Source: an uncultured Holophagaceae bacterium (GTDB lineage: Bacteria > Acidobacteriota > Holophagae > Holophagales > Holophagaceae). Taken from it: 7,912 nucleotides of DNA. The position numbers were made by a program, and so were the translations under genes. Each line of letters begins with the position of its first letter. The first letter of the stretch is position 1. Below the pieces are notes generated by a model. The model saw nothing but the letters and a program-made list of their open reading frames with translations. It had not been told where the DNA came from and ran no database searches. Location: positions 1 through 7,912 of the forward strand of contig CAIYNT010000093.1 of the NCBI GenBank assembly GCA_903927605.1, read 5' to 3'. Of the stretch, positions 1 to 7,912 are shown one piece after another.

Positions 1-1572
1 CAACAGCGCGACCGTGAAGGTCGTGATTTGTGACTGGTCGGCACGGAACAGGGGCTTGATGGCGGCATAGGAACGCTTGTAGACGATGGCCGTTGCAATC
101 ATTCGCTTGTACTCCGCTGCATCTGGGAGTATCGGAATGCCAGCCTCTTCGCGCATATCCAATTCCGACATGAGGCGTTCAAAGTTCTTCTGCGCCCCGT
201 GATTCACGACGTGTGGCCGACCCTCCCAGCAGTTGAGGTACTTCGCCAGTTCCGGCTTGGTGATCCTCCTGGTACTGGGGATCATCTTCTGGAGCTGCCG
301 TTGTTTCGCTGTCCCCTCGCCGGCTTGGGCCAGCATGACGTTGTAACTTCCAGCAGCCCGCTCGTAGTACCAGCGGCTCTCCCCATCCGGACAGAAAATC
401 GTGGTGGCAAGCTTCTCGAGCTCGATGTGGAACGGCTTGTTCGCGGACAGATCCGAGATCTTCACAGCGGTCTGACTGTTCGCAAAGCGCGAGATGGAAG
501 TGATCAGGGCCTCCTCCTGATCCTTCTTAACATCCTTGAATATGATCACCTTTGCAGGTATCCGGACTCTTGACAAATCCACAGAAGGATTTTTCTTCTT
601 CGTGAAATAGATGGAAGCCGTGGTCTGGCCACCGTTGACGATCTGGAGCCCTTTCATCCAGAGGATTCCTAGGCTGCCGTCATCTAGCCTTCCGAGTTCC
701 ACATGGTCTGCAATCACCACGATCCCGTTGTTGAAAGCAATGAAATGCTCCGGCGCCTCCAGAAGGGTCTTGCGGATCCCGCTGTTCACTTTGTTGCTGT
801 CGCGCCCCTTGGCGCTCAAATAGGAACGAACATTGGCCTCGAGCAGACGAGCGTCGAACTTTTCGTACACGTGTCGAAGTGCCTCGCCAGGAAACACCGT
901 GAGCGCGTAGTCGCATCCGGTGGATTCTCCTGGAATATAGACGCATGGAACAGGCCCCCCGCAGACTGTCCTGAAATCAACGATGATCTCCTCTCGCGGC
1001 TTGCCCTCTGACCAGTGCCTATGGAGCCGCTCTATATCCATCACCTCGAGCTTGATCGTGCGCCCCCCAACATCCTGTGGGGTGAAACGCTTGGATTTAG
1101 CCACGGAGTCCGTGATGACGAAGATTCGGACTTCGTTCAACGTCGGGTAGGAGTGGTTGAGATTGACAACGAGATCATAAGCGGGATTCGCTGATTCCAT
1201 GCCCTTCATCAACCGTCCGTCAGCACAGCGCGCCAGGAAGCGGAGACACTGCATCGCCGCATCCTTGGTGGCGGAGTCGGGAATTGTAGTCAGCTCCTCT
1301 GCCCCGGAATACAGACTTACGAACAGGTCGACCCGTTCTAGGTCTTGTGAGATGGAGTACCCACTGAGTCGTAGGCGCGCATTGCTGATCTTTGAATCGA
1401 GATGGCAGACCTGGGGCTCGTATGTCATCCCGATGTCTTCGAGGTGCTCCATCACGACCTCAGTGAAGACTGATTCCTCGAACGGGTATCCGGCGCCAGG
1501 ATCTACCAGCCGCTCCCTTGCCTGGTCATTTACACGGGCTTTGGTATGTCGCAGGAAATCGATCAGTTCCAT
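1..1572 (-). CDS. AIPR family (abortive infection phage resistance) protein, C-terminus cut by the window edge
   Basis: I read this frame by translating the complement of 1572 down to base 1: 524 codons without a stop, continuing past the left edge. It shows the AIPR hallmarks in order: LLEANVRSYL (243-252), NKVNSGIRKTL (260-270), FIAFNNGI (277-284), GLQIVNGGQTTASI (308-321) and SRWYYERAAGSY (399-410). The N-terminal part (about 28-90) has the usual pre-AIPR pattern ending in GYSISQDLERVDLFVSLYSG. Family members of this type are often 600-700 residues, so perhaps 100 or more residues are missing here. The AIPR family is named from a plasmid-borne abortive infection protein, but its biochemistry is poorly defined and I do not assign a reaction. 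The ATG follows the PD-(D/E)XK stop by 2 bases and has GGAG 10 bases upstream, so translation is probably coupled. It is the last gene visible, and more genes may follow beyond base 1. Confidence 0.92.
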   Translation of the reverse strand, partial: MELIDFLRHTKARVNDQARERLVDPGAGYPFEESVFTEVVMEHLEDIGMTYEPQVCHLDSKISNARLRLSGYSISQDLERVDLFVSLYSGAEELTTIPDSATKDAAMQCLRFLARCADGRLMKGMESANPAYDLVVNLNHSYPTLNEVRIFVITDSVAKSKRFTPQDVGGRTIKLEVMDIERLHRHWSEGKPREEIIVDFRTVCGGPVPCVYIPGESTGCDYALTVFPGEALRHVYEKFDARLLEANVRSYLSAKGRDSNKVNSGIRKTLLEAPEHFIAFNNGIVVIADHVELGRLDDGSLGILWMKGLQIVNGGQTTASIYFTKKKNPSVDLSRVRIPAKVIIFKDVKKDQEEALITSISRFANSQTAVKISDLSANKPFHIELEKLATTIFCPDGESRWYYERAAGSYNVMLAQAGEGTAKQRQLQKMIPSTRRITKPELAKYLNCWEGRPHVVNHGAQKNFERLMSELDMREEAGIPILPDAAEYKRMIATAIVYKRSYAAIKPLFRADQSQITTFTVALL

Positions 1573-1574
1573 GA

Positions 1575-2591
1575 TCAGATCACTCCAAGTCGTTCGAGGG
1601 CTGTAATCATTCCATCTTCTCCCGGAGGGAGAAGCTCGAGATCCAGGACATACCTGGCCTCTTTCACTGCGGGAGGCACGGAACCTCGGGTCATGACCGA
1701 ATCGGTCGTATCGACTTTTCGAACTGTGATGCCTCTCTCAATGTATTTCCTCTGGAATTGTGACCTTATTCCTGAATGGAAACCGGCGAATAGCAGCCGA
1801 GCAGAGAACATTGGAGATGCCGAAGTCTCGGCGATGCGTTCGTGGATCTGATCGATCAGTTCAGGAAGGGTCTGCCCCTGCTCACTCATAGAGAGACGAA
1901 CAGCCGCAAGGAAGAGAGCCTGAACCTGCGTGCAGTCAAGCTGATCCAGGGAGGCGATAGTGGCCATGAAGCCGGCGGAGGCGGTAGTGCTTTTCACCTC
2001 AATAGCGCCCGCATTGAATTCAAAGTCATGAAGGCCATCCATCGGGCCCTGCCAGGACTTCAGGATCTCCTCTGCGGGGACGCCAGCATCAAGGGAGGCC
2101 CGAAGAACGAGAAGTTCGCCGAATAAACCAAGCTCGACTTCCCGGCTCATCAACTCCGGTGACTCGCGCTCCATGAATGCTTGCCAGGCGCGGATACGTT
2201 CAAGTGTCGCACCCAGGATTTCCCGCTCCCCTGATCTTTCCATGGAGCACAAAAGGGCGGCGATGTCCTCAGCCATGGCTGCGAAGAGCTCAAGACCACC
2301 CGTTGATTTCCTGACGAGCGCAAGCCATGAGGCAGCTGGGCCCGCTTCGGCAAGGATAGGCTGAAGAACCAGGAAACCCCTTCCCGCGGGCAGCTGGATC
2401 CCATGGGGGATGGAGACAGAAGGGAAACCTACCAGTACGGCCTCAGCTCGGTCAGGGAATTGGCGGCCAGCAAGCAGCCGCAGCTTGCCTGAACGCCAGA
2501 TTTCGATCGTGCTCCAGCCCTCTGCCGGTCCACAATCCTCAAGGGCACGCCAAGCCGTTCTGAGGGATTCCATCTCACTCCGTGAAGTCAT
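1575..2591 (-). CDS. PD-(D/E)XK motif protein (DUF4420-like), putative nuclease subunit
   Basis: This gene encodes 338 residues resembling the PD-(D/E)XK motif family usually encoded beside Z1 proteins. The conserved GLFGELLVL segment (about 155-163) is followed by KSWQGPMDGLHDFEF and AIEVKST. The candidate metal-binding and catalytic set is Asp189, Glu198 and Lys200, a complete D...ExK core, so the protein is probably a metal-dependent DNase. Three starts are possible. ATG 2633 lies far inside the Z1 gene. ATG 2591 has GGGAG 7 bases upstream and is chosen. ATG 2573 follows the Z1 stop by one base and has GGAG only 4 bases away; it would give 332 residues. With the chosen start the gene overlaps Z1 by 17 bases. 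The AIPR gene starts 2 bases after its stop. Cleavage specificity is unknown. I expect it to work with the Z1 motor rather than alone, which is inference from conserved gene order. Confidence 0.88.
   Translation of the reverse strand: MTSRSEMESLRTAWRALEDCGPAEGWSTIEIWRSGKLRLLAGRQFPDRAEAVLVGFPSVSIPHGIQLPAGRGFLVLQPILAEAGPAASWLALVRKSTGGLELFAAMAEDIAALLCSMERSGEREILGATLERIRAWQAFMERESPELMSREVELGLFGELLVLRASLDAGVPAEEILKSWQGPMDGLHDFEFNAGAIEVKSTTASAGFMATIASLDQLDCTQVQALFLAAVRLSMSEQGQTLPELIDQIHERIAETSASPMFSARLLFAGFHSGIRSQFQRKYIERGITVRKVDTTDSVMTRGSVPPAVKEARYVLDLELLPPGEDGMITALERLGVI
1583..1586 (-). promoter_or_regulatory. Ribosome binding site of the AIPR gene
   Basis: GGAG on the minus strand lies 10 bases before the AIPR ATG and inside the last codons of the PD-(D/E)XK gene. 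Spacing is slightly long but acceptable. The stop and start are separated by only two bases, so ribosome re-initiation is likely. Confidence 0.6.
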
Positions 2592-5433
2592 ATTCACGCT
2601 CCCACTGTCGCCACATGACGGTATTGACGGCATAGCGCACCTTCCTTCCGGACTTGCTGGAAGGGAAGCTGACCCCGAAACCGATCACCGGGGGAAGGTC
2701 CTCCGCAACCTCCCCGAGCTCCGCCTTGGCTGGATCCAAAGCGTACAAGAGCAGAAGTCCACGCTCAGGATGGCCTTGCCCCCTTATCTTGCGGATAGAC
2801 GGTCCGTTCGGTGTCGATGGTTGCCCCTGGGCCGGATTTCCGCTCATCCGTGCGGGATCGGAGACGTAGGCAAGTACGGTTTCAGCGCAAGCAGACTGCC
2901 ATTCCTTGTCCGACAGATCGATGGCCTCATCCCTTGGTGAGAGCAGTCGCCCGATGGTGTACCGATCGTGTCTCTTCAGATCTTTTCGTCTGAGGGTGTC
3001 AACCGATAGTCCACCGAAGGATTCGACTCTGCCTTCACCACCCCCGATCAAGGCTACCGTCCATGAGGTCAACTCGCCAGCTGAGTTCATGGACTGAATG
3101 AACTCTGAGATCAGGGCGCTGTTGACCTTGTGTGCGTCCCCATGAGTGACATATGCGTCGAGGAATCCGCAGACATGGCCGGGATCCACACCCTCCCACA
3201 AGTAGCCCTTCCATTCCTGGTCTTTGCCAAGGCGTAACCGTTTCGGGTTCTCCTCAAAGGGAGGACCCATCTGGGATATCAGGTGAACTAGAGCATCGCA
3301 GTTCCGCTTTAGGTGTGGTTTCTCCTTGAAGAACACGACGGTTTCAAGAACCTCACCACTGAAGGAAAGCCAAAGATCCTTGGCCGACCTCATCTTTAGG
3401 CGGGAAGTCACCATGAGGACGGGATGCGAGGCGACCTTGTGCCCATAAGTTTTCGGGGTTTCTCCAGAGTTCACCATGATGTCGAACTCCTCCCGGAGCT
3501 CCTCGGATGCATCTGCGATGTGGCCGAACCATTCGATCAGTTCTTCCGTCGTATACAGTCGGCAGAGATCCACATAACCGGGCCTATACCCGAACCACCG
3601 TCCCATCTGCATGAGGGTGTCGTACATCCTCGACGCCCTCAGGAAATAGCTCACGCACAACCCTTCGAGGGTGAGCCCGCGGGACAGCTTGTCTCCACCG
3701 ATGGCGATCACCTTGAGCCCAAGAGTCCCTGCATCGGCGTAGTCCAGGGCGTCCTTGGCAGTTCCATTGATCGTCCGTATCTTGATTTCGTCCAAGGCAT
3801 TCGGGATTGCAGCGGCAATGTCATTCCAGTCTTCAGGTGATTGCTTGCAGAGGACGGGGTGATCGGAGGCGATCTGGCGCGTCGTGGTTGAGAAGTCGCT
3901 AATCCACAGGTGCTCAAGTCTGTCCAGGATGGACTGGTGATTGATTCTCCGATCGATGCGCTGCTTCATCGTCCGAATATGTTCCGAGACCTGTCTGAGA
4001 ACATGTTCCTGCACAAGGTTGAACCTCGTGACGTGGATCAGCATGGATGCATGCTCCTTCTCCTGTCCCCGGACTCGACGGGCCGCGCAAGCGAGCACGA
4101 ATGCATCTATGGCCTCCACTAGCGTGGGAGGCAAGTTGTCCTGTCCTTCGTGAAGTGGGACATGCCTGCTCTTATGCCGTACAGGCATCCAGCCGCTCAT
4201 GCCATCGGGTGCCATGTGGTCCCGAATGACTCTCAATACCGGCATCTGGCCGGTGCGGCCTTCCGGACCCTGAGTGCCGAATACCTTTGCCGGTCCGATG
4301 TATTCGGATGACGCGGCGAGGTTGTAGATGAAGGCTGAAGGGAACAAGTCAGGACCTTCGCTGCGCGTGGTCCCTTTGTCATGGATGAAGATGTTCGCGA
4401 AGGGTGTGGCCGTATAACCGACGTAAGCCGAGCGTGTAAAGGTGTGGAGGATTCTCCGGATGAGTTTATTGATTACCGTTGGGGAATGCTCCTCGTCTGG
4501 AGATCCGTCCGGATTGAATGCCTGCTCGCCAGTATCCACGGATGCGTGGTCTGCTTCATCGTCGATAAGGAGAAGCGGAAGGTTGGTGATGATCTTCCGG
4601 CCGGTATCGGCGCTTGTCGAGTCTGCCACCCGTGTCGAAAGCCAACGATGAAGCCTCTGGAGAGGAGTCTTGTTCTTCTTTACGACAAACAGGCAAGGCC
4701 GCCGATCGGGAGTGATTCCGAAGTTTCGAGTGTTGGAAGGATTGAAATCGCCGGATTCCATACGGTTGGTGGCGTAGTCTGGTGCTATCCCTGGGTCTGG
4801 ATCGAAGACCCCGGCTCCGATGGGTGTGTGTCCCTGGTCCCCAGGCTGGGTCTCGAACCCCAGGAAGCCTTCGTCCAGACGCATTTGAGTCTGGGACCGC
4901 AGATTGTTGTGGAGCCCTGCGAGTACGATGATGATCTTGTATCCAGCATCGGCAGCCTTGCAGATCAAACCGGTGTAGTTCCCCGTCTTGCCGGACTGGA
5001 CATGTCCGACAACAAGACCGCGCCTGTCCCAGGTGCCATTCCGTTGAGGATCCTCGAGCTGATCGAGGATGTTCTCAGAGGCGAGGTCCAGGGCATCCAC
5101 GGCTATCCGAGGCAGTTTCCGATCCAGCCATTCCTCGTAACGGTTCCAGTATCGGCGCTCCTTTCGCCTGTCAGCGCTGAGCCATGGGACATGCCCGTAA
5201 GCATCCGAGAGAAGGGCATCCTTTCCGATCCACAGGCTGAACCTTCGAATGAGTTCATCCGTTACTGCTCCCCTATCGAGGCCCTCTCCCCAGCTGGGTT
5301 CCATCAGGAGTACGCGGTCAATCTTTTCGCCTATGACGGTTGGCGTGATCGAGCTCCTGTCCAGAATCGAGAACAGCATCCCCTGGACAGTCCTGATTAC
5401 TTCGGATTGCCCCGAACGTGCATCGCTTCTCAT
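2575..5433 (-). CDS. Z1-domain superfamily 2 helicase-like ATPase
   Basis: This 952-residue protein belongs to the Z1 family, an SF2 helicase-related ATPase class found with MORC-like ATPases in restriction-like operons. Motifs appear in helicase order: Walker A GHVQSGKT (143-150), motif Ia-like IIVLAGLHNNLRSQT (168-182), Walker B DDEADHA (291-297), motif III YTATPFAN (340-347), motif V GGDKLSRGLTLEG (579-591), and the motif VI hallmark MQMGRWFGYRPGYVDL (609-623, arginine finger region). All catalytic motifs are intact. Residues 1-135 and about 730-952 flank the motor without a recognisable motif and may bind DNA or partners. The ATG sits in an ATGA overlap with the end of the GHKL ATPase and has a strong GGAGGAG site 8 bases upstream, so the start is well supported. 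The stop lies inside the beginning of the PD-(D/E)XK gene. Translocation on DNA or unwinding is inferred from the family; substrate and polarity cannot be told. Confidence 0.95.
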   Translation of the reverse strand: MRSDARSGQSEVIRTVQGMLFSILDRSSITPTVIGEKIDRVLLMEPSWGEGLDRGAVTDELIRRFSLWIGKDALLSDAYGHVPWLSADRRKERRYWNRYEEWLDRKLPRIAVDALDLASENILDQLEDPQRNGTWDRRGLVVGHVQSGKTGNYTGLICKAADAGYKIIIVLAGLHNNLRSQTQMRLDEGFLGFETQPGDQGHTPIGAGVFDPDPGIAPDYATNRMESGDFNPSNTRNFGITPDRRPCLFVVKKNKTPLQRLHRWLSTRVADSTSADTGRKIITNLPLLLIDDEADHASVDTGEQAFNPDGSPDEEHSPTVINKLIRRILHTFTRSAYVGYTATPFANIFIHDKGTTRSEGPDLFPSAFIYNLAASSEYIGPAKVFGTQGPEGRTGQMPVLRVIRDHMAPDGMSGWMPVRHKSRHVPLHEGQDNLPPTLVEAIDAFVLACAARRVRGQEKEHASMLIHVTRFNLVQEHVLRQVSEHIRTMKQRIDRRINHQSILDRLEHLWISDFSTTTRQIASDHPVLCKQSPEDWNDIAAAIPNALDEIKIRTINGTAKDALDYADAGTLGLKVIAIGGDKLSRGLTLEGLCVSYFLRASRMYDTLMQMGRWFGYRPGYVDLCRLYTTEELIEWFGHIADASEELREEFDIMVNSGETPKTYGHKVASHPVLMVTSRLKMRSAKDLWLSFSGEVLETVVFFKEKPHLKRNCDALVHLISQMGPPFEENPKRLRLGKDQEWKGYLWEGVDPGHVCGFLDAYVTHGDAHKVNSALISEFIQSMNSAGELTSWTVALIGGGEGRVESFGGLSVDTLRRKDLKRHDRYTIGRLLSPRDEAIDLSDKEWQSACAETVLAYVSDPARMSGNPAQGQPSTPNGPSIRKIRGQGHPERGLLLLYALDPAKAELGEVAEDLPPVIGFGVSFPSSKSGRKVRYAVNTVMWRQWEREYDFTE
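2599..2603 (-). promoter_or_regulatory. Ribosome binding site favouring the 2591 start of the PD-(D/E)XK gene
   Basis: GGGAG on the minus strand lies 7 bases before the ATG at 2591, inside the end of the Z1 gene. A weaker competing site (GGAG at 2578-2581) is only 4 bases from the alternative ATG at 2573, so the 2591 start is preferred. Confidence 0.6.
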
Positions 5434-6932
5434 GACTTCTTCTCCTCCGCGCCTTCCCTCAGGGAAGCGACAAGGTCGGGAAATTTGTGGAATGGGTCAG
5501 TCTGTAAGAGCTTCTGAATGGCAGACGCGGCATCCATCCCTCTGTTCAACATGCCCTGGAAAAGCTCGCCAAGAACTTCCAGGATGGCTTCGGAAGGGGC
5601 CCCCGAGAAGGCATTCCGGGGAGTCTCCCGAGTCTCCGTGGTGTCCAGCCAAATTCGCTGGACTGGCACAGTTTCCTCAATCACACGGAGCATGGACTTC
5701 ACGGCTGGCAGTAGAGTTCCGGCCTGCTCCAGCACCGCCTGCACTGCCGGATGAGTTTCTTCGATCCGATACCGAATACCGTCGGACAATCGGTCTGCCC
5801 TCCATGCCTGAAGGATTGGTTGGCTCTCTGCTCTGGGCTGCTCCCCGCGATGAGCGAAGACGCGGCGAGCCTTCTCCCGTGCATCTTCTGCCAGCTTTGT
5901 GAGGCGCGGACGGAGGGCTGCGGGAGGTCGGGCTTCGGACTTCCGGATGTCTATCCGCCATTCGGCGTCAGCAGAGTTCGGGATGTCCACCCTGATTCGA
6001 GCCAGCCTGAAGGCTTCCTCTTTGCTCCATGGCTTCCCGGGTCCCAGGCCCAACCAGCTACCGGATACGAGCAGACGCTTGTTTCTGTAAACGTAGAAGC
6101 CTTGCTGGGCTGTCCATCCGTCAGGACCGGCGGCGCGGTCGTGGACTGCCCTTTCAAGCTTGTCCTTGTGGGGGAGGACATTGGACTGGACAAGCACGGT
6201 GCCGCTGCTGCCCCGCAGGGGTTCCTCCGGGGACGGGAAAGAGGCTGCATGGCTTGCAAGGAAGGGGTCCCAAGGGCCCACCGCCTTTCCATTTATCAAG
6301 ATGGAGAGGCGAGGGGAAGAGCCCTCGAGGTACCGGTGGAAGACCATGGCCAAGTGCTGCTCGACGTGATCGATCAAATCCAGGAAGTCCTGTTGGCCGA
6401 ATCCTGGAGTGACGAGGCGATCAAGCCGTTCCCAGAGGACCAGGGTTCCATCAGTTCGGCCCTTTAGCGGATCAAGCAGCTTTTCTGACCCGGGGTGCGG
6501 ACCTTCAAGGAGATACCACCCGTCGTCCTGGCTCTCAGCAAGCACATCCAGGTCCCATCGGAGGCAGTCCTGTGTTCCATTCGCGGTGGAGGCCACAGTC
6601 AAACGCCTGCACTGCGAGAACGATGCTGTCTTAAGGCCGAGACCAAATCTTCCGAGGTCCTCCGGGGATCTCGGATCCAGCGGGTTCCTCGCTCCAAGGC
6701 GCATTGCACTGTCGAGGATTTCTGGTGTCATCCCGCAGCCATCATCCAGGATGCGAATGTAGGAGGCAGCTCCATCCCATATGAAGTGGAGTTCAACAGT
6801 CCTGGCGCGGGCTGAAATGCTGTTATCGATCAGGTCCGCAATCGCAGTGGGAGCTGAATAGCCCAGACCGCGCAGAGACTCGACCATCGCAGAAGCCCGG
6901 GGTGGTGCATGCCTTGACCTACTCGCACTCAT
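5430..6932 (-). CDS. MORC/MutL-like GHKL ATPase of a Z1-type defence operon
   Basis: This is a 500-residue ATPase of the GHKL fold (Hsp90, gyrase B, MutL, MORC), whose members dimerise as ATP-driven clamps. Visible motifs are the N box AIADLIDNSISA (Asp33, Asn37), the G1 box DDGCGM at about 63-68, and the lid GRFGLGLKTAS at about 94-104. A second S5-fold-like region ends near GFYVYRNKRLL (about 278-288), where GHKL proteins usually carry a lysine that contacts ATP. The C-terminal part (about 335-500) is probably mostly helical and matches nothing I recognise. The general base is usually Glu in the N box, but here it is Asp33. Three ATGs in a row occur at 6938, 6935 and 6932. The third is preferred because the AGGAGG site lies 6 bases upstream of it and directly abuts the first. 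The gene overlaps the sigma gene by 14 bases and the Z1 gene by 4 (ATGA). In related operons this ATPase is paired with Z1; a role in sensing or clamping foreign DNA is inference. Confidence 0.93.
   Translation of the reverse strand: MSASRSRHAPPRASAMVESLRGLGYSAPTAIADLIDNSISARARTVELHFIWDGAASYIRILDDGCGMTPEILDSAMRLGARNPLDPRSPEDLGRFGLGLKTASFSQCRRLTVASTANGTQDCLRWDLDVLAESQDDGWYLLEGPHPGSEKLLDPLKGRTDGTLVLWERLDRLVTPGFGQQDFLDLIDHVEQHLAMVFHRYLEGSSPRLSILINGKAVGPWDPFLASHAASFPSPEEPLRGSSGTVLVQSNVLPHKDKLERAVHDRAAGPDGWTAQQGFYVYRNKRLLVSGSWLGLGPGKPWSKEEAFRLARIRVDIPNSADAEWRIDIRKSEARPPAALRPRLTKLAEDAREKARRVFAHRGEQPRAESQPILQAWRADRLSDGIRYRIEETHPAVQAVLEQAGTLLPAVKSMLRVIEETVPVQRIWLDTTETRETPRNAFSGAPSEAILEVLGELFQGMLNRGMDAASAIQKLLQTDPFHKFPDLVASLREGAEEKKS
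5442..5448 (-). promoter_or_regulatory. Ribosome binding site of the Z1 gene, inside the GHKL ATPase gene
   Basis: GGAGGAG on the minus strand lies 8 bases before the ATG of the Z1 gene and within the last codons of the ATPase gene. Together with the ATGA stop-start overlap it fixes the Z1 start and implies coupled translation. Confidence 0.85.
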
Positions 6933-7890
6933 CATCATCCTCCTGCAACGGGAGCCTTGGTGTGGGAACGAGGAAGGATGGCTGGTTAGCCCTAAGCTGG
7001 TCCCTCAAATGAGGGAATCTGCTCCCGATCCTGGATAGTGCGCGACTTTCAATCTGGCGTACCCGCTCCCGGCTGATGGGTGGAGAGAAGGACTGGCCAA
7101 TATCATCGAGGGTTTCTTCCTCTGCTCCATCCAGGCCGAAATGCCGATTGATGATCACGCGCTCCTTTGAGCTGAGGATCCTCAGTGCCAATTCAAGAAT
7201 GGCACCATCCTGCTCAAGGACAGGCTGCTCCATAGGGATGTAATGGGTGCTTGGATACGGGAATCCTCGAGTGAGGGTGCAAGGTCCGCATTCGATTTCA
7301 TCCAGCCTCATGAGTGTGACCGACTGCTGCACTTTATTGAGGTGATTCAATTCAGAGTGAGTGAACAGCCCTGACTTCAGGACATCTTCTTCAAGTGGGA
7401 TGCGCCCAAGATCCTGCTCTAACTGAGCAGTGAGGCGATGTAGCTGATACAGGGAACCGGCTACCTTTTGGGGGACCCGGATGCCACTTCCATACTCGGC
7501 AAGTGCCCGGAATATGGATTGACGTACCCACCAGGAGGCATAAGTCAGGAACCGATTCTCCCGGGTCGGGTCGAAGCGTTTCGCACCTTCGATCAATCCG
7601 AGGTTTCCCTCGCTTATCAGGTCACCTAGGTCCAGCCCGTTACGGGGGAACTTCCTGGCCTCACGGACGACGTAGCGCAGATTGCCCTTGACTAGCCCAT
7701 CAAGCCCTTCTGGATTCCTTGATTCTGTCCACATCCGGCTGAAATGCAGTTCTTCCTCGGGCGTAAGGAGAGGCAGTGGACCGAGGATGCGATAGTAGCT
7801 CGACAGTTCGTCCTGCTCAAAACAGATGAGACCGGACAGATAGGAGAGTACCTCTTCACTGACTTCCTCGGGTTCGCCGTCCGGTGTCAT
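6919..7890 (-). CDS. Sigma-70 family RNA polymerase sigma factor (group 2-like), first gene of the operon
   Basis: This gene encodes a 323-residue primary-type sigma factor, which directs core RNA polymerase to promoters. Region 1.2 is at about 27-52 (DELSSYYRILGPLPLLTPEE). Region 2 spans about 65-140, with NLRYVV, DLISEGNLGLIEG, RFDPTRENRF and the TYASWWVRQSIFRA core. Region 3 is at about 142-200. Region 4 is at about 233-290, ending in the DNA-reading helix SRERVRQIESRAL. There is no long region 1.1, and the length fits group 2 rather than the compact ECF class. Oddities are Phe127 where E. coli RpoD has Thr440, two extra residues in the region 4.2 turn, a CGPC motif at 201-204, and an acidic tail (EDDDECE). 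The ATG has no clear Shine-Dalgarno upstream, and the frame stays open to the window edge with no further start codon visible, so a longer N-terminus outside the window is possible. The 3' end overlaps the GHKL ATPase gene, so the sigma factor is structurally part of this operon. Its target promoters cannot be read from this window. The family call is very secure; the exact start is moderate. Confidence 0.95.
   Translation of the reverse strand: MTPDGEPEEVSEEVLSYLSGLICFEQDELSSYYRILGPLPLLTPEEELHFSRMWTESRNPEGLDGLVKGNLRYVVREARKFPRNGLDLGDLISEGNLGLIEGAKRFDPTRENRFLTYASWWVRQSIFRALAEYGSGIRVPQKVAGSLYQLHRLTAQLEQDLGRIPLEEDVLKSGLFTHSELNHLNKVQQSVTLMRLDEIECGPCTLTRGFPYPSTHYIPMEQPVLEQDGAILELALRILSSKERVIINRHFGLDGAEEETLDDIGQSFSPPISRERVRQIESRALSRIGSRFPHLRDQLRANQPSFLVPTPRLPLQEDDDECE
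6939..6944 (-). promoter_or_regulatory. Ribosome binding site of the GHKL ATPase gene, inside the sigma gene
   Basis: AGGAGG on the minus strand is a near-perfect Shine-Dalgarno. It abuts the first of three tandem ATGs and lies 6 bases before the third, which makes the third (6932) the likely start. The same bases encode the acidic C-terminal tail of the sigma factor. Confidence 0.8.
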
Positions 7891-7912
7891 GTGTAAACGC
7901 GGATCGAGCGCC

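Follow-up and report, generated by a model that had tools for sequence, protein, structure and literature searches.

A 7,912-nucleotide (nt) stretch of DNA from an uncultured Holophagaceae bacterium (contig CAIYNT010000093.1, hereafter the window) carries five genes that match, by sequence and in the same order, mzaABCDE of the MZA anti-phage system. What is unusual is the sigma factor part of MzaA, in place of which this lineage seems to have put a sigma factor of its own type. MZA is attributed to Gao et al. 2020 in passages of Miller et al. 2022 (PMC9523054), where mzaABCDE is called a 'validated' system and mzaA is named as a sigma factor. All five window proteins have the model of the corresponding Mza protein as their top match in both PADLOC and NCBIfam; the PADLOC MzaA match (expectation value (E) 1.9e-30) covers only model positions 411-655 of 683. 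The features, with protein lengths in amino acids (aa), are:

6919..7911, minus strand: mzaA 3′ part, the last 330 codons of what is probably a gene for an ankyrin-sigma fusion, with the 5′ part beyond the window
7711..7809, minus strand: sigma region 1.2-like segment of Holophagae type, from alignments with stand-alone Holophagae sigma factors and hybrids
7501..7695, minus strand: sigma region 2 (PF04542; Pfam E 1.2e-15)
7030..7188, minus strand: sigma region 4 (PF04545; Pfam E 6.4e-9)
5430..6938, minus strand: mzaB, a MORC-like GHKL ATPase of 502 aa (PADLOC MzaB E 2.2e-189)
2575..5433, minus strand: mzaC, named by gene order (PADLOC MzaC E 0)
1575..2633, minus strand: mzaD, a DUF4420 PD-(D/E)XK nuclease (Pfam DUF4420 E 2e-62; PADLOC MzaD E 3.3e-47)
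1..1572, minus strand: mzaE, an AIPR protein, first 524 aa, with the 3′ end beyond the window (Pfam AIPR_N E 1.4e-46, AIPR E 9.7e-75; PADLOC MzaE E 3.4e-186)

We examined the best 80 of 589 genome loci and tallied flanking genes in the 54 with at least 2 kb on each side of the operon, the other 26 being excluded. A sigma gene directly precedes the MORC-like gene in 51 of these 54 loci, so this adjacency is not restricted to the present genome. The original prediction had described a five-gene anti-phage operon with a sigma factor as an undescribed addition. The genes are real, but the window edge cuts through the sigma gene, and what was taken for the whole of it is its 3′ part. The anti-phage assignment was right in kind, given the best PADLOC and NCBIfam models, though with scores under the NCBIfam cut-offs. 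The supposed novelty was mistaken: MzaA is by definition a sigma factor, NCBIfam NF041931 carries its name, and an annotated Escherichia coli MZA locus includes the sigma gene.

A tree of MzaB and MzaC (B+C tree) places the window inside a clade that holds the annotated E. coli MZA (support 100, six outgroups, five of which were seen to be sigma-less). This 43-row clade contains the window, E. coli, L130 and 40 of 75 genome loci, the 75 being those kept in the first B+C tree after loci with MzaB <380 or MzaC <850 residues were removed. Because the scores fall under the NCBIfam equivalog cut-offs (score/cut-off 751/850 for MzaB, 1289/1500 for MzaC, 318/420 for MzaD and, for the proteins cut by the window, 156.6/800 for MzaA and 771/1050 for MzaE), we filed the operon, as judged from its sequence, as a divergent MZA variant and not as a strict equivalog. 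The word 'variant' is used because its MzaA sigma module is Holophagae-type, not RpoD-type.

A probable MzaA fusion and its apparently exchanged sigma module

The first gene of the window most probably encodes an ankyrin-sigma fusion of which just the C-terminal half is present. Its reading frame is open to base 7911, and by eye no Shine-Dalgarno sequence precedes the ATG at 7890, whereas mzaB has aggagg immediately 5′ of its ATG. Protein P0136 (647 aa; Ank_2 at 26-98, then sigma regions 2 and 4) is 71% identical across all 330 in-frame window codons and runs 317 residues upstream past the window edge, into ankyrin repeats; the window ATG falls opposite an internal residue of this protein. P0138 also aligns through the edge, at 65%, reaching some 317 residues further. 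Genome G428 has an mzaB 67% identical to the window's, preceded by a 669-aa gene with N-terminal ankyrin repeats. A protein search with its product (P0121) gave 20 proteins that fall with it (P0121-P0140, hereafter the hybrids), of which 17 have precomputed ankyrin domains (the exceptions are P0126, P0137 and P0140). The domain is present in the window's closest relatives, P0136 and locus L131; in the window's own gene the corresponding region would lie outside the window. A structure model of P0136 built from an 18-row alignment (mean predicted local distance difference test score 67, predicted template modeling score 0.28) is confident over residues of about 18-115, the ankyrin part, but not over 116-210 and 224-253, where confidence is low; the region 1.1 and sigma positions are modeled as helices.

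Alternatively, a separate, short (~300 aa) Holophagae-type sigma gene without ankyrin repeats might stand before mzaB by chance. The 323-aa frame from 7890 resembles the 274-327-aa stand-alone sigma factors, with up to 56% identity. However, P0136 and P0138 align better, through the edge and with ankyrin domains, and a linker and C-terminal tail common to the window and the hybrids are absent in the eight stand-alone proteins compared. We therefore regard a separate gene as highly improbable. The frame leaves the window and its nearest relatives extend into ankyrin repeats, and on these grounds a short sigma standing by itself at the head of the operon was rejected.

Canonical MzaA is best read as ankyrin repeats joined to an entire housekeeping-type (RpoD-type) sigma factor. 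Nine of 10 MzaA proteins scanned (L131 included) have N-terminal ankyrin repeats and sigma regions 2 and 4, and E. coli MzaA likewise combines ankyrin and sigma; the tenth, from L058, matches region 4 only. A profile of 64 MzaA N-terminal parts (L131 included) aligned with 16 host RpoD-type sigma factors (probability 99.9, E 5.5e-37) across what we take to be region 1.1, region 1.2 and the non-conserved region, and it is this span that suggests a complete sigma factor. With Pfam alone, L005, L008 and L073 have a region 1.2 match above cut-off, and L014 is the only one with such a match to the non-conserved region. The build agrees with passages of PMC10924106, in which mzaA is highly variable and contains the sigma-70 non-essential domain PF04546. 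Among L001-L080, the 63 complete frames (by first start codon) encode MzaA of 436-1094 aa, with 149-720 residues preceding the portion that matches the window's sigma. The pre-mzaB gene of L058 (5158-8412) encodes 1084 aa with a sole match, to sigma region 4, at 444-496, and is possibly a degenerate or rearranged MzaA.

Residues that presumably read the -10 and -35 promoter elements, in E. coli numbering as we assume it, are widely kept. Equivalents of W434, R441, R584, E585, R586, R588 and Q589 occur in all 65 MzaA and that of Q437 in 64, and the window MzaA keeps every -10/-35 residue considered except T440, which is F. These kept residues favor a working sigma factor. A linker motif pattern was found in just 6 of 63 canonical MzaA, and we conclude nothing from it.

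Stand-alone sigma factors of Holophaga and relatives (the close ones are named Holophaga or Mesoterricola) share up to 56% identity with the window's sigma, compared to 27-37% for the MzaA proteins that it matches in 66 of the 80 genome loci. Matches at E ≤ 1e-40 occur in 38 of 149 sampled Acidobacteriota genomes (11 at 52-55% identity and 27 at ≤40%), and matches at E ≤ 1e-55 in 64 of 93 Holophagae-class genomes, one in each except G428, which has two. The window and the hybrids fall inside a Holophagae sigma clade with a Shimodaira-Hasegawa-like approximate likelihood ratio of 100 (31 rows in the first sigma tree, 50 in the second). The first tree included 19 of 120 listed stand-alone sigma factors and 10 genome copies; the second combined the window and the full set of 20 hybrids with 34 canonical MzaA out of 65. 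A tree constrained to unite the window and L131 with the other 65 MzaA modules was 156 log-likelihood units worse (approximately unbiased test, p-AU 0.000145), and forcing the window and 20 hybrids with the 34 canonical MzaA was 230 units worse (p-AU 8e-39). A single clade of the window and hybrids was not rejected (p 0.71).

Residues 60-336 of the L131 protein are nevertheless homologous to canonical MzaA (31%, E 2e-30 to L001), and this homology takes in the region 1.1-like part at about 281-345. Region 1.2 runs directly into region 2, with no non-conserved region, in 19 of the 20 hybrids (those in which the region 2 motif was found); in the window the region 1.2-like segment likewise abuts region 2, and the Pfam region 1.2 model has no match to the window protein. 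The B+C trees pair the window with G428 (99), whose MzaC in this comparison is a 322-residue fragment, and nest the pair inside canonical-sigma MZA, next to L048 (98) in one tree and to L001/L004 (83) in another. With a Holophagae-type sigma, a canonical MzaA-like N-terminal part and a core nested in canonical-sigma MZA, the simplest history would be that the sigma of the lineage took the place of the original module in a canonical MzaA, starting at about region 1.2. Operon context comes only from the window and L131.

The Holophagae module is not a primary sigma factor, as a separate sigma of RpoD type, 570 aa long, is encoded in genome G098 and groups with other RpoD. The idea that many lineages have renewed the module time and again from their host's RpoD was considered and rejected. 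The first sigma tree placed L033/L040 and L068/L084 among host RpoD, but a single clade of the 65 other MzaA was not rejected (p-AU 0.63), and only the Holophagae swap is therefore claimed.

A putative restriction-type core and its sigma-less relatives

Of the 54 loci, 49 have a C5 methyltransferase at a distance of up to 5 kb and 43 at up to 2 kb; for a Vsr endonuclease the corresponding counts are 47 and 40. Both enzymes are present within 5 kb in 46 loci, and the loci without a C5 methyltransferase at this distance are L010, L038, L040, L053 and L058. As background we counted C5-methyltransferase matches in the genomes of 15 of 16 loci (L028 was excluded). These host genomes, about 70 Mb in all, gave 31 match rows, MZA-linked ones included, from which arithmetic predicts chance linkage in well under 1% of loci.

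None of the 12 distant loci checked (MzaC 33-44%; those with short flanks were left out) has a sigma match of 50 bits. Ten of the 12 have the methyltransferase and eight have Vsr; L085 and L090, which have neither, are on sequences that end within or soon after the operon. Since the core is linked to methyltransferase and Vsr while the 12 distant relatives are sigma-less, it seems that a core resembling restriction-modification systems came first and gained the sigma factor later.

Five Pseudomonadaceae loci (L015, L019, L021, L024 and L026), which form one B+C clade (100), have a C5 methyltransferase directly before mzaB and no ankyrin-sigma MzaA. A canonical MzaA query in those five genomes matched elsewhere, through its sigma part only, from residue 465 onward; the matching frames are 299-620 residues long. 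The impression from these loci that methyltransferase and sigma are alternatives in one slot was rejected because 46 of the 51 sigma-bearing loci also have a methyltransferase within 5 kb. The related idea that a first-in-operon methyltransferase replaces a timing role of the sigma was weakened, as the sigma-less distant relatives carry the methyltransferase on either side.

We also note several features of individual loci. The E. coli ET745 MZA (L169 16025-21639) adjoins a restriction endonuclease, a PD-(D/E)XK protein, DUF262 and a type I R subunit, and its surroundings look like a defense island beside yecA. In the window, residues E173, D203, E212 and K214 of MzaD are conserved, and the true start of mzaD is probably 2591, not 2633. 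Sequence searches of the PDB gave weak MORC and MutL matches for MzaB and no relative for MzaC. An open frame of 378 aa lies antisense to mzaC (4381-5517, plus strand).

Possible roles of the sigma factor

Our searches of open-licence literature turned up no described mechanism for MZA. We see a not quite even chance that MZA combines an older methyltransferase-Vsr core with an added control or sensing part, a complete, promoter-reading ankyrin-sigma that would be host-tailored and, in the Holophagae, swapped with the ankyrin repeats and region 1.1 kept. Our preferred reading is that the restriction-type core is run by a real sigma factor that engages host RNA polymerase; that it does so to activate its own operon is the leading possibility, at somewhat less than even odds. 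The sigma part of MzaA would engage host RNA polymerase, the MzaA-bearing polymerase would switch on the mza operon, and the restriction-type MzaB-E core would carry out defense under sigma control.

Several points weigh against this reading of the operon, its identity and the swap included. All five window proteins lie below the NCBIfam equivalog cut-offs, and the sigma trees are quick or FastTree trees in which the tree program flagged long branches. The W433 equivalent is present in 50 of 65 MzaA and that of T440 in only 30. The Pseudomonadaceae loci do without an ankyrin-sigma MzaA, and the 21.6 kb around the E. coli MZA has no annotated C5 methyltransferase. Because the housekeeping sigma has the same -10/-35 residues that are kept here, a dedicated sigma is expected to read similar promoters. 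Upstream of mzaA, sigma-70-type promoters with a score of at least 9 were found in 11 of 60 stretches, versus 12.5 expected from shuffles of the same stretches and 5.5 in randomly chosen stretches of these loci. The number is twice that of the random stretches but does not exceed the shuffles, and the idea of such a promoter ahead of mzaA was therefore rejected. For eight alphaproteobacterial loci with translated starts compared, the upstream sequence itself is still alike and so unsuited to an upstream footprint.

Any role in which the host polymerase is needed would be in line with a switch to the host lineage's sigma, and two other roles have to be weighed. Three points favor MzaA as an integrated decoy: the canonical form is built like RpoD throughout, with region 1.1 and the non-conserved region both kept, the module in the Holophagae is a sigma of that lineage, and the ankyrin domain implies a protein partner. 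Yet -35-reading residues kept in 65 of 65 MzaA exceed what bait needs, and a module that is not the primary sigma is a less obvious phage target; we consider a decoy unlikely. A sigma that directs targeting seems a little less likely again. It would account for the kept promoter-reading residues and for the place of the sigma gene directly before mzaB, but the 12 distant loci checked have the same core and no sigma, so targeting is possible without one. A role in expression is the most likely of the three, with decoy and targeting behind it.

The anatomy of MZA gives testable statements, namely an ankyrin-RpoD fusion whose -35-reading residues are intact in all 65 relatives. Exchange of the module for the host lineage's sigma suggests selection for matching the host RNA polymerase and, if true, would make MzaA a defense component with a host range set by that match. 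An annotation limited to mzaABCDE would overlook the methyltransferase and Vsr found with most loci.

Comparison with known systems

The window has the same five families in the same order as the annotated E. coli MZA, with identities of 30% for the sigma part of MzaA, 55% for MzaB, 55% for MzaC, 33% for MzaD and 51% for MzaE. It differs from canonical MZA in its sigma module, which from about region 1.2 is Holophagae-type and without the non-conserved region. Stand-alone Holophagae sigma factors (RpoD/SigA-named, ~287 aa) are up to 56% identical to this module; those compared are without the ankyrin part, linker and C-terminal tail. We recognized no description of an ankyrin-sigma fusion in defense, or of the Holophagae swap, in our searches of open-licence literature. 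The putative types I/II of Miller et al. 2022 have, according to passages of that paper, about 20% identity to mzaBCDE, with mzaA in only a few (PMC9523054).

The third type of MORC restriction-modification operon, as outlined in passages of Iyer, Abhiman and Aravind 2008 (PMC2292703), combines a MORC ATPase, a helicase and a restriction endonuclease-fold nuclease, as does the window. The helicase motif given there, DThhQXuRhFG, has the window counterpart DTLMQMGRWFG, and a legend includes AIPR. The window has a sigma factor, whereas the word 'sigma' is absent from the main text of that paper. Cytosine methylases and Vsr are frequent near MORC operons in the same passages; the methyltransferase link is thus already known for MORC operons generally, and the count for sigma-bearing MZA is added here.
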